A DNA stretch of 64,000 bases from Streptomyces sp. NRRL S-244 (GTDB taxonomy: Bacteria; Actinomycetota; Actinomycetes; Streptomycetales; Streptomycetaceae). The stretch's first letter is position 1. Each line of letters opens with the position of its first letter. Both the position numbers and the translations under genes were made by a program. The DNA lies in the NCBI RefSeq assembly GCF_000717915.1, contig NZ_JOCX01000010.1, forward strand, positions 124,001 through 188,000. The letters are read 5' to 3'. The notes beneath the pieces are model-generated. The model was not told the origin of the DNA and did not search any database. It worked only from the letters and a program-made list of their open reading frames with translations. Below, one piece after another: positions 44,731 through 49,290 of this stretch.

Positions 44731-46491
<1,761 letters not shown>

Positions 46492-46753: not shown

Positions 46754-46957
46754 CTAGACGGCGAGCTTGACCATGTCCGCCTGCGGACCCTTCTGGCCCT
46801 GCGAGATCTCGAACTCGACCCGCTGACCCTCTTCAAGGGTGCGGTACCCGTCCATCTGGATGGCGCTGTAGTGGACGAACACATCCGCACCACCGTCGAC
46901 CGCGATGAAGCCGTAGCCCTTCTCCGCGTTGAACCACTTGACGGTGCCCTGAGCCAT
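46754..46957 (-). CDS. Cold-shock protein, CspA family
   Basis: A 67-residue RNA chaperone of classic CspA size with RNP1 (KGYGFIAV) and RNP2 (VFVHYS) intact. It begins [10 protein letters not shown] and ends ADMVKLAV, as in the abundant streptomycete Csp proteins. A 380-base AT-richer region upstream, ending at the metO terminator, probably includes its promoter and a long 5' leader typical of csp genes. Confidence 0.95.
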
Positions 46958-47290
46958 GCCTAACTCCCCTATTACTGGCCCTTGCGCAGGACCGCACTTC
47001 GCGGTCCCGGGTCAGAACTTGCGCCGGAACGCCTCGACCGGGGCTGAATGTATCCGCACCGCTGCTGTCTGCAACAGGTCAATCCGACGAGAATTCTGGA
47101 CACGGGGATACATTGAAATAGAGTGAAAAGTTGGCATATTCCCGGGCAACTCGGACCCGGCATATCTCGCCAAAGCCCCATACCGCACTTGCACATTGAC
47201 TCAATGTCAACCATCACGCGACCCGCTCATATGCGGCGGGCAAGAACAGCGGAGGGGACTTCCCCAACTCTACCGCGCCCAACCAAGCAG
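46958..47290. other. Upstream/leader region of the cold-shock gene
   Basis: About 330 bases, clearly lower in GC than the rest of the window. It holds a good -35 TTGACA on the minus strand (47210-47205) embedded in overlapping palindromes (47193-47210). No ORF is convincing. Confidence 0.5.
47193..47210 (-). promoter_or_regulatory. Overlapping palindromes in the csp upstream region
   Basis: ACATTGA-C-TCAATGT (47193-47207) overlaps TTGAC-N5-GTCAA (47196-47210). The second contains a consensus-like -35 on the minus strand. Candidate operator. Confidence 0.45.
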
Positions 47291-47325
47291 AATTACCCCC
47301 TCCGCTTTTACCGGAGGGGGTAATT
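47291..47325 (-). terminator. Terminator of the metM-metO operon
   Basis: Perfect 14-base arms (aattaccccctccg and its complement) with a 7-base loop, 15 bases after the metO stop. The AATT ends make it unusually AT-flanked for this genome. Confidence 0.88.
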
Positions 47326-47340
47326 CGAGGCTTTCGCGTG

Positions 47341-47619
47341 TCAGCAGCCGCCCGCGACGGCGGGAATGATCGAGACGCCCGCGCCGTCCGGCGTCACCGC
47401 GTCCAGACCGCCCTCGAAGCGCACGTCATCGTCGTTGACGTAGACGTTGACGAAGCGGCGCAGCTTGCCCTGGTCGTCCAGGACGCGGGCGGCGATGCCC
47501 GGGTGGCTCGCCTCGAGGGAGGCGATGACCTCGGAGAGGGTCGCGCCCTCGGCGGAGACCTCGGCCTGGCCGCCGGTGTAGGTGCGCAGGATGGTGGGGA
47601 TGCGGACGTTGACGCTCAT
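47341..47619 (-). CDS. metO: Sulfur-carrier protein, MoaD/ThiS-like (probable MetO)
   Basis: A 92-residue beta-grasp protein that, as a C-terminal thiocarboxylate, donates sulfur. It shows VRIPTILRTYTGGQAEV, LSEVIASLEASHPGIAARVL and RFVNVYVNDDDVRFEGGLD. It ends AVAGGC: the Gly-Gly needed for activation is followed by one extra cysteine, so the last residue must be removed first. It lies 38 bases downstream of the threonine-synthase-like gene under the same SAM riboswitch, the arrangement described for metM-metO in Streptomyces, where the carrier supplies sulfur for homocysteine. Confidence 0.82.
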   Translation of the reverse strand: MSVNVRIPTILRTYTGGQAEVSAEGATLSEVIASLEASHPGIAARVLDDQGKLRRFVNVYVNDDDVRFEGGLDAVTPDGAGVSIIPAVAGGC

Positions 47620-47657
47620 GGCGCTACTGCCTTTCCGGTAGAGCAGGGAGGAGATGG

Positions 47658-48932
47658 TCAGGCCAGGCCGGCGGCGCGGAACGCGTCCAGGCTCGGGCGG
47701 ATGGTGGCGCTCTGCCCGCTGTCCGCGGCCACCGCCTCCAGGGTCTTGAGGCCGTCACCGGTGTTGAGGACCACCGTGGTCAGTGCCGGGTCGAGCTGAC
47801 CGTTCTCGATGAGCTTCTTGGTCACGCCGACGGTCACGCCGCCCGCGGTCTCGGCGAAGATGCCCTCGGTCTGCGCGAGGATCTTGATGGCCTCGACGAC
47901 CTGCTCGTCGGTGACGTCCTCGACGTAGCCGCCCGTACGGCGGGCGATGTCCAGGACGTACGGGCCGTCGGCCGGGTTGCCGATGGCCAGCGACTTGGCG
48001 ATGGTGTTCGGCTTCTGCGGGCGGACCACGTCGTGGCCGGCCTTGAAGGCGGTGGAGACCGGGGAGCAGCCCTCGGCCTGCGCGCCGAAGATCTTGTACG
48101 GCTTGTCCTCGACGAGCCCGAGCTTGATCAGCTCCTGCAGACCCTTGTCGATCTTCGTCAGCTGCGAGCCCGACGCGATCGGGATCACGATCTGGTCGGG
48201 CAGCTGCCAGCCGAGCTGCTCGCAGATCTCGTACGCCAGGGTCTTGGAGCCCTCGCCGTAGTACGGGCGCAGGTTGACGTTGACGAAGCCCCAGCCCTCG
48301 CCGAGCGGGTCGCCGATGAGCTCGGAGCAGAAGCGGTTGACGTCGTCGTAGTTGCCCTCGATGCCGACGAGGTCGCCGCCGTACACGCCGGCCATGACGA
48401 CCTTGCCCTGCTCCAGGTCGTGCGGGATGAACACGCAGGAGCGGAAGCCGGCCCGGGCGGCCGCGGCGCCGACGGCGCCGGCCAGGTTGCCGGTGGAGGA
48501 GCAGGACAGGGTGGTGAAGCCGAAGGCCCGGGCGGCCTCGACGGCGATGGCCACGACGCGGTCCTTGAAGGAGTGCGTCGGGTTGCCGGAGTCGTCCTTG
48601 ACGTACAGCTTGCCCGTGACGCCGAGCTCCTTGGCCAGGTTGGCCGCGTCCACGAGCTTGGTGAAGCCGGGGTTCAGGCTGGGCTTGGAGGCCACGTCCG
48701 CGGGGACGGGCAGCAGCGGGGCGTAGCGCCAGATGTTGTTCGGGCCGGCCTCGATCGCGGCGCGCAGCGCCTCGGGGTCCCCGGTGGGAAGGTCGTAGGC
48801 GACTTCCAGCGGACCGAAGCACTCGACGCAGGCGAAGATGGGTCCGAGTTCGAAACGGGTACCGCACTCACGACACGAGAGGCCGGTGGCAGGTCCGAGA
48901 TCGACAGAGGTGGCAACAGTCTGTGCAGCCAT
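47658..48932 (-). CDS. metM: Threonine-synthase-like enzyme, probable MetM homocysteine synthase
   Basis: A 424-residue PLP enzyme of the threonine synthase fold. A zinc-ribbon-like N-terminus (CRECG ... CVECF) precedes the PLP lysine in NPTHSFKDRVVAIA, the Ser/Thr-Gly-Asn loop CSSTGNLAGAVGAAAARAG and the C-terminal NTGDGLKTLE. Sequence alone says threonine synthase. Context argues otherwise: a SAM-I riboswitch precedes it and a sulfur-carrier gene follows, matching MetM, which makes homocysteine from O-phosphohomoserine. ATG 48932 is used, with AAAGGG ten bases before. A housekeeping thrC elsewhere would settle the assignment. Confidence 0.8.
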   Translation of the reverse strand: MAAQTVATSVDLGPATGLSCRECGTRFELGPIFACVECFGPLEVAYDLPTGDPEALRAAIEAGPNNIWRYAPLLPVPADVASKPSLNPGFTKLVDAANLAKELGVTGKLYVKDDSGNPTHSFKDRVVAIAVEAARAFGFTTLSCSSTGNLAGAVGAAAARAGFRSCVFIPHDLEQGKVVMAGVYGGDLVGIEGNYDDVNRFCSELIGDPLGEGWGFVNVNLRPYYGEGSKTLAYEICEQLGWQLPDQIVIPIASGSQLTKIDKGLQELIKLGLVEDKPYKIFGAQAEGCSPVSTAFKAGHDVVRPQKPNTIAKSLAIGNPADGPYVLDIARRTGGYVEDVTDEQVVEAIKILAQTEGIFAETAGGVTVGVTKKLIENGQLDPALTTVVLNTGDGLKTLEAVAADSGQSATIRPSLDAFRAAGLA

Positions 48933-48951
48933 GATGGCGAGGCCCTTTCTC

Positions 48952-49101
48952 CTCATCTTCCCCATGGCGCACTTCGCCATGAGACGGAATTGGCACCTTC
49001 CCTAGCCGGGGACCTCGCTGCCGCAAGCAAGCAAGCGCGAGAACCGACTGGAGGGTTGCCGGGGCTTCAACGGGCCGTGTCCCTCTGCCCCTCTGGATGA
49101 G
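48952..49101 (-). ncRNA. SAM-I riboswitch (S-box leader)
   Basis: On the minus strand the leader reads CTCATCCAGAGGGGCAGAGG, then the core GACACGGCCCGTTGAAGCCC and CGGCAACC, later GGTGCCAATTCC, and closes with GATGAG. These are the conserved S-box segments in order; the first and last hexamers pair as P1. P1's 3' strand lies 19 bases before the ATG and abuts the purine-rich ribosome site, so translational OFF control by SAM is likely. No intrinsic terminator is visible between P1 and the gene. Confidence 0.93.
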
Positions 49102-49290
49102 CGGTATGGCACCGGGCCGCGCGCTCTGCGGCGCGTCCGGGCGTTTGTGCGCGGGGACCCCCGGCATGCGGTGGTCCTTCGCGTTGTTCAAGACTGTAAC
49201 TGAAGGTCCGGGTGGTTGAGACAGCCGTCCGAACCGCGAGATGGATCACTTTTCGGCTGAAACCGCCGGGGAGCGACGGACGACCAGGGA

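Follow-up and report, generated by a model that had tools for sequence, protein, structure and literature searches.

The minus strand of the window (the whole stretch of 64,000 nucleotides of Streptomyces sp. NRRL S-244 DNA that was analyzed) carries an operon transcribed in the order SAM-I riboswitch, metM, metO, and a hairpin. The aptamer of the SAM-I (S box) riboswitch, at positions 48950..49103, is separated by only 17 nt from the start codon of metM, and the segment that includes this spacer and the ATG (48930..48949) holds a likely ribosome-binding site beside the 3′ strand of the P1 helix. The metM gene (47658..48932) encodes a fold-type II PLP enzyme of 424 aa. After an intergenic gap of 38 bases it is followed by metO (47341..47619), which encodes a sulfur carrier protein of 92 aa with the C terminus Gly-Gly-Cys. 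These boundaries agree within 2 bases with those given in an earlier note on this DNA. The host genome, 7.1 Mb in 73 contigs, is rated 99.95% complete.

Immediately 3′ of metO lies a 15-bp perfect inverted repeat (47290..47326 on the minus strand), whose folding z score is −5.27, with none of 200 shuffled sequences being equally stable. The single terminator claimed in the earlier note is thus likely, although the hairpin is not followed by a good U-tract and does not appear in the list produced by the terminator pattern scan. One other minus-strand site that the scan did list, 47266-47250, is within chance expectation (1 found, 1.4 expected). Farther downstream on the same strand, a GroEL-like gene (44731-46353) and a small cold-shock-like gene (46780-46957) were recognized by eye from their translations.

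The riboswitch matches the Rfam model RF00162 over its full length (positions 1 to 108 of 108) and scores 75.9 bits where the gathering threshold is 44.4 (E = 4.9e-16), which bears out its description in the earlier note as a clear SAM-I riboswitch; no second match to this model was found in the 7.1-Mb genome. A riboswitch precedes metM in all 80 named Streptomyces loci compared here (the best 80 of at least 527) and in 10 of the 20 scanned metM loci from other genera, with two more such loci (L159 and L162) lying outside the scan. In the 40 of the 80 Streptomyces loci that were printed and compared by eye, the P1 3′ strand GAUGAG runs directly into GAGGAGAAAGGG, with the ATG shortly after. 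The GAGGAGAAAGGG segment, which starts in the last bases of the aptamer, is identical in 38 of these 40 loci, the exceptions being L045 and L057. The longest metM open reading frame starts at another ATG, at position 48980 inside the riboswitch aptamer, and would yield a product of 440 aa; many of the top database entries in the homolog list have this length. Judging by the leader, the ATG at 48932, behind the conserved ribosome-binding site, fits better than the one at 48980 as the start of metM.

The most likely mode of control is that closure of P1 upon SAM binding hides the ribosome-binding site of metM, because a terminator would hardly fit into the 17 nt and none of the sites listed by the pattern scan lies in the leader. 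With plentiful SAM, the riboswitch would close the P1 helix beside the ribosome-binding site, and translation would be lowered. Many SAM-I riboswitches of Firmicutes act by premature termination of transcription, and the same mode could be envisaged here. It appears improbable, however, in view of the short distance between the aptamer and the start codon, the outcome of the scan, and the near invariance, in the 40 loci printed, of the segment with the likely ribosome-binding site. When the leader was folded on energy alone, the aptamer structure of Rfam was not recovered, and this folding was not used.

The MetM protein matches the Pfam PALP domain with 219 bits and the NCBIfam thrC model TIGR00260 with 274 bits, well above the cut-off of 167.1, as against 32.6 bits with the NCBIfam cysK model. 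Its partner matches the Pfam ThiS domain with 60.6 bits, and its best solved relatives are of the CysO type: chain B of 4n6e and chain C of 3dwg, deposited as the 9.5 kDa culture filtrate antigen cfp10A, which we take to be the CysO protein of Mycobacterium tuberculosis. Both assignments in the earlier note, a PLP enzyme of the threonine synthase fold and a MoaD/ThiS-like protein, are therefore confirmed. The Gly-Gly pair near the C terminus is present in MetO, with the Cys residue after it. The two genes are linked well beyond this genome: metO follows metM in 79 of the best 80 Streptomyces loci (of at least 527), the remaining one being cut by a contig end, and a metO-like gene lies beside metM in 19 of 22 loci from other genera (it is missing in L151, L157, and L161).

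The thrC equivalog model accepts MetM and ThrC alike, and all named homologs among the 120 listed are called threonine synthase. The earlier note, which predicted that metM would be misannotated as thrC, had proposed looking for a second threonine synthase gene near thrB or hom, and one is indeed present in a lysA-hom-thrC-thrB cluster, where it follows lysA and hom and precedes thrB. The product of this canonical thrC is 37% identical to MetM and scores 320.7 bits with TIGR00260. Against the solved threonine synthase 2d1f it scores 493 bits versus 156 bits for MetM, and the best score of MetM to any solved threonine synthase is 178 bits, as compared to 493 for the canonical ThrC. Both the position between hom and thrB and the closest kinship to solved ThrC proteins thus belong to the other gene, and the prediction of misannotation holds, given that the thrC equivalog accepts MetM and the database names follow it.

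The 120 listed homologs are near neighbors of metM, so an alignment was compared instead of a wide ThrC/MetM tree; it included 34 MetM-type sequences, one ThrC, two ThrC-like paralogs, and CysM. In this alignment, the MetM-type proteins have an N-terminal Cys4 segment in common and carry FKDRVV, STGNLA, and Gly-Gly-Val (residues 364-366) where ThrC has FKDRGM, STGNTS, and Ser-Ala-Ala. MetM therefore resembles the solved threonine synthases (2d1f, 2zsj, and 1uim) in its fold-type II PLP family, the SFKDR motif and, probably, the substrate, but differs from ThrC in the Cys4 segment, in conserved residues near the active site, and in having a carrier partner and a riboswitch. The same genome encodes two further ThrC-like PLP enzymes (L003, 1411-2520 on contig C18, and L004, 1444-2631 on contig C20). 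Neither of them reaches any of the NCBIfam cut-offs shown for threonine synthase, and a search of both contigs for ThiS-family genes found none.

Two other assignments of the operon were weighed. The first would make MetM an additional threonine synthase under SAM regulation, with the small protein next to it being unrelated to the enzyme. The score above the thrC equivalog cut-off and the database names speak for it, as does the behavior of a cyanobacterial MetM homolog with 51.6% identity, which forms threonine according to the available excerpts of PMC12172450. It was rejected as the main reading once the hom-thrC-thrB cluster was found, and we regard it as very unlikely: a canonical ThrC is already encoded between hom and thrB, SAM is a signal of the methionine pathway, the carrier gene is linked to metM in nearly all the Streptomyces loci compared and in most of the others, and the conserved residues of the MetM sequences around the active site differ from those of ThrC. 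Some residual threonine synthase activity of MetM would nonetheless be possible, because the thrC equivalog model accepts the protein. The second assignment, a further CysM/CysO-like system forming cysteine from O-phosphoserine or O-acetylserine, can draw on the 61% identity of MetO to the CysO of this genome and on the CysO-type chains among its best solved relatives, but is practically negligible because the genome already has a mec-cysO-cysM cluster elsewhere (on finding which a duplicate cysteine pathway was rejected), the enzyme of the cysteine synthase branch beside cysO and mec is cysM whereas MetM falls on the threonine synthase branch, and control by SAM does not suit such a system.

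The remainder of the genome was searched for genes of the competing and supporting pathways. For MetX, the best score with TIGR01392 was 24.1 bits. None of the 14 control genomes scores as high as the 500-bit cut-off of this model, but 7 of them have a match at E ≤ 1e-30, and MetX was therefore counted at the latter threshold. For MetA, the PF04204 search of the genome gave no match, as compared to matches in 8 of the 14 controls. The family PF01053 has nine matches in the genome, six of them over the cut-off; the three with more than 270 bits were examined. One of the three exceeds the cut-off for cystathionine gamma-synthase, another that for cystathionine gamma-lyase, and the third passes none of the 25 models shown; none passes an O-acylhomoserine sulfhydrylase model among those shown. 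The search for metB-, metC-, and metY-type genes that the earlier note had suggested thus gave a mixed answer: it would be untrue to say that there is no metB-type gene, as gamma-synthase- and gamma-lyase-type genes are both present, but the acyltransferase that would feed the metB-type one, MetX or MetA, was not found.

Four carriers of the ThiS family were found in the genome: MetO, the CysO protein of the mec-cysO-cysM cluster, one encoded beside thiamine-looking genes (recognized by eye), and a MoaD-like one ending in Gly-Gly, the names of the last two not being model-based. The Mec protein is the Prok-JAB protein encoded beside cysO. The genome also encodes MoeZ (NF005902, 754 bits versus a cut-off of 647), with ThiF and rhodanese domains.

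The separate canonical thrC, the failure to find MetX or MetA, and the presence of MoeZ and mec-cysO-cysM elsewhere in the genome lead us to assign the operon, with high confidence, to metM-metO, the predicted homocysteine-forming step of Streptomyces methionine synthesis. The operon and its pathway are already known, having been published in 2024. According to the available excerpts of PMC12172450, Hasebe et al. 2024 (doi 10.1128/aem.01247-24) found that Streptomyces has a new homocysteine synthase, MetM; the same excerpts mention metO and a SAM riboswitch upstream of metM in Streptomyces albulus and state that MetM prevents methionine auxotrophy. The name S. albulus corresponds to S. noursei in the NCBI taxonomy, and S. 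noursei B-3066 (locus L086), a strain of the tested species, has MetM and MetO proteins that are 88% and 91% identical, respectively, to those described here, a riboswitch, and a MetO ending in Gly-Gly-Cys. The two systems thus share the genus, the SAM riboswitch, the threonine-synthase-like enzyme, and the adjacent sulfur carrier, and no difference between them was found. Together with the separate ThrC and the missing acyltransferases, this likeness bears out the proposal in the earlier note that the operon is the methionine branch.

In the Streptomyces MetM route, MetO reportedly acts as a thiocarboxylate donor. By this scheme, MoeZ would adenylate the C-terminal glycine of MetO, which would then probably be converted to a thiocarboxylate, whereas the hom and thrB products would supply O-phosphohomoserine to MetM. 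The enzyme would swap the gamma-phosphate of O-phosphohomoserine for the sulfur of MetO-COSH, with homocysteine formed either directly or via a MetO-homocysteine adduct from which it is then released, and methionine synthase would methylate the homocysteine. The Gly-Gly-Cys tail of MetO might be trimmed by the JAMM peptidase Mec. The whole arrangement resembles the CysM-CysO-Mec system of M. tuberculosis, which, per the available parts of PMC3227635, also combines a PLP enzyme with a ubiquitin-fold carrier bearing a terminal thiocarboxylate, uses a phosphorylated hydroxy-amino-acid substrate, and has MoeZ. It differs in that the enzyme comes from the threonine synthase branch, the substrate is probably one carbon longer, the operon is under SAM control, and no peptidase is encoded in it.

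Some observations count against the assignment to MetM-MetO. The cystathionine gamma-synthase-type gene might itself use O-phosphohomoserine, as plant cystathionine gamma-synthases do. A MetX-like gene (E ≤ 1e-30) is present in 45 of the 150 sampled Streptomyces genomes, three of these genes scoring just 139 to 153 bits, although this genome is not among the 45. Finally, the Microcystis protein that is 51.6% identical to S. albulus MetM both made and deaminated threonine; it is encoded without a riboswitch, and its authors, in the available excerpts of PMC12172450, did not consider it to be a full MetM in cells. The behavior of this homolog is a warning against naming distant MetM relatives.

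Within the genus, MetM was found in all 150 Streptomyces genomes sampled (E ≤ 1e-100), in one of them as a fragment at a contig end. Among 198 genomes from the phylum, a MetM match was detected in 76 (E ≤ 1e-60), MetX in 71, and MetA in 23. In the 190 genomes outside the genus, 17 combine MetM with MetX or MetA, 51 have MetM alone, 73 have MetX or MetA alone, and 49 have none of these; the odds ratio is 0.22 (Fisher p = 4e-6, uncorrected for kinship), and the matches counted include one (in G182) that is merely 34% identical. These counts from outside Streptomyces lean toward replacement, although MetM relatives near 55% identity may be the sole threonine synthases of their genomes. The unit of riboswitch, metM, and metO reaches some Actinomycetota outside the class Actinomycetes, as seen from the metO-like genes in 19 and the riboswitches in 10 of the best-scoring non-Streptomyces loci (22 in all, 20 of them scanned for the riboswitch).

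The C-terminal tail of MetO varies within the genus. Among the 79 readable loci of the best 80 Streptomyces loci (of at least 527), MetO ends in Gly-Gly-Cys in 50 and in Gly-Gly in 29, with no other ends seen. At the DNA level, 45 of the 50 Gly-Gly-Cys loci end in GGCTGCTGA and 28 of the 29 Gly-Gly loci in GGCTGA, so that these two endings differ by a single CTG unit. The tail state was mapped on a metM tree of 80 labeled sequences (the 79 readable loci and the window) and switches there at least 13 times, as compared to 18 to 28 times in 200 shuffles of the labels, so that the tail is an inherited trait that flips often. The 120 nearest MetO relatives listed include 63 that end in Cys, 54 that end in Gly-Gly, and 3 that end otherwise; outside Streptomyces, the ends of MetO include bare Gly-Gly as well as Gly-Gly followed by C, R, A, AG, CA, or something longer. 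The CysO protein of this genome (L109, 6348-6635) ends in Gly-Gly-Ser-Val, and all of its 120 listed relatives, whose gene context was unchecked, have at least two residues past the glycine position, most often SK. The match to the M. tuberculosis chain 3dwg_C ends at Gly-Gly, unlike the CysO described here and its listed relatives.

The mixture of Gly-Gly and Gly-Gly-Cys ends in MetO, together with the two or more further residues in all the listed CysO-like proteins, suggests that a JAMM peptidase of the Mec type trims the MetO tail before the carrier is loaded with sulfur. There is a precedent in thioquinolobactin synthesis, where QbsE is a carrier with residues past Gly-Gly that are removed by a JAMM protein, QbsD, before sulfur loading; that pathway is a different one, and the Streptomyces MetO tail is a single Cys (in 50 of the 79 loci). 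The simplest reading is that Mec, encoded beside cysO, trims MetO and CysO alike. We tentatively extend this to a joint reading, which is plausible if somewhat short of probable, in which both carriers would be pro-proteins, CysO with its tail of at least two residues and MetO with a single Cys that would imitate the CysO-cysteine adduct. Mec would mature both and free any MetO-homocysteine, MoeZ and Mec would be shared by cysteine and methionine synthesis, and the MetO tail would flip on and off as one CTG unit is gained or lost by slippage, its presence being nearly neutral as a result of the trimming.

Alternatively, the encoded C-terminal Cys could be trimmed by a peptidase other than Mec or be kept and functional, which is possible but doubtful. 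No peptidase gene was recognized next to metO, and the variety of tails outside Streptomyces gives no hint of a single dedicated enzyme. On the other side, the tail is missing in 29 of the 79 loci, so that the Cys is unlikely to be needed for function, and CysO and MoaD carry their thiocarboxylate on the terminal glycine (PMC3227635 and PMC4326299, in their available parts). As to another peptidase, the same sources report that the Mec protein of M. tuberculosis hydrolyzes the CysO-cysteine adduct, freeing cysteine from CysO-Gly-Gly-Cys, and the Prok-JAB protein of this genome adjoins cysO. No discussion of the MetO tail was found in the literature searched, including the available portions of PMC12172450, PMC12452182, PMC4326299, and PMC3227635, although Hasebe et al. 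2024 may cover it; within that scope, the tail pattern and its consequence for carrier maturation are the one part of this description for which no earlier account was found.

The operon lends support to the idea that in Streptomyces, which are major antibiotic producers, the methionine branch starts at O-phosphohomoserine. It also shows that automatic annotation still calls MetM a threonine synthase. The counts attest to how widespread the unit is, with MetM in every Streptomyces genome sampled and riboswitch, metM, and metO together in some Actinomycetota outside the class Actinomycetes. The Gly-Gly-Cys tail, in turn, bears on the question of a single JAMM peptidase shared by the cysteine and methionine pathways.
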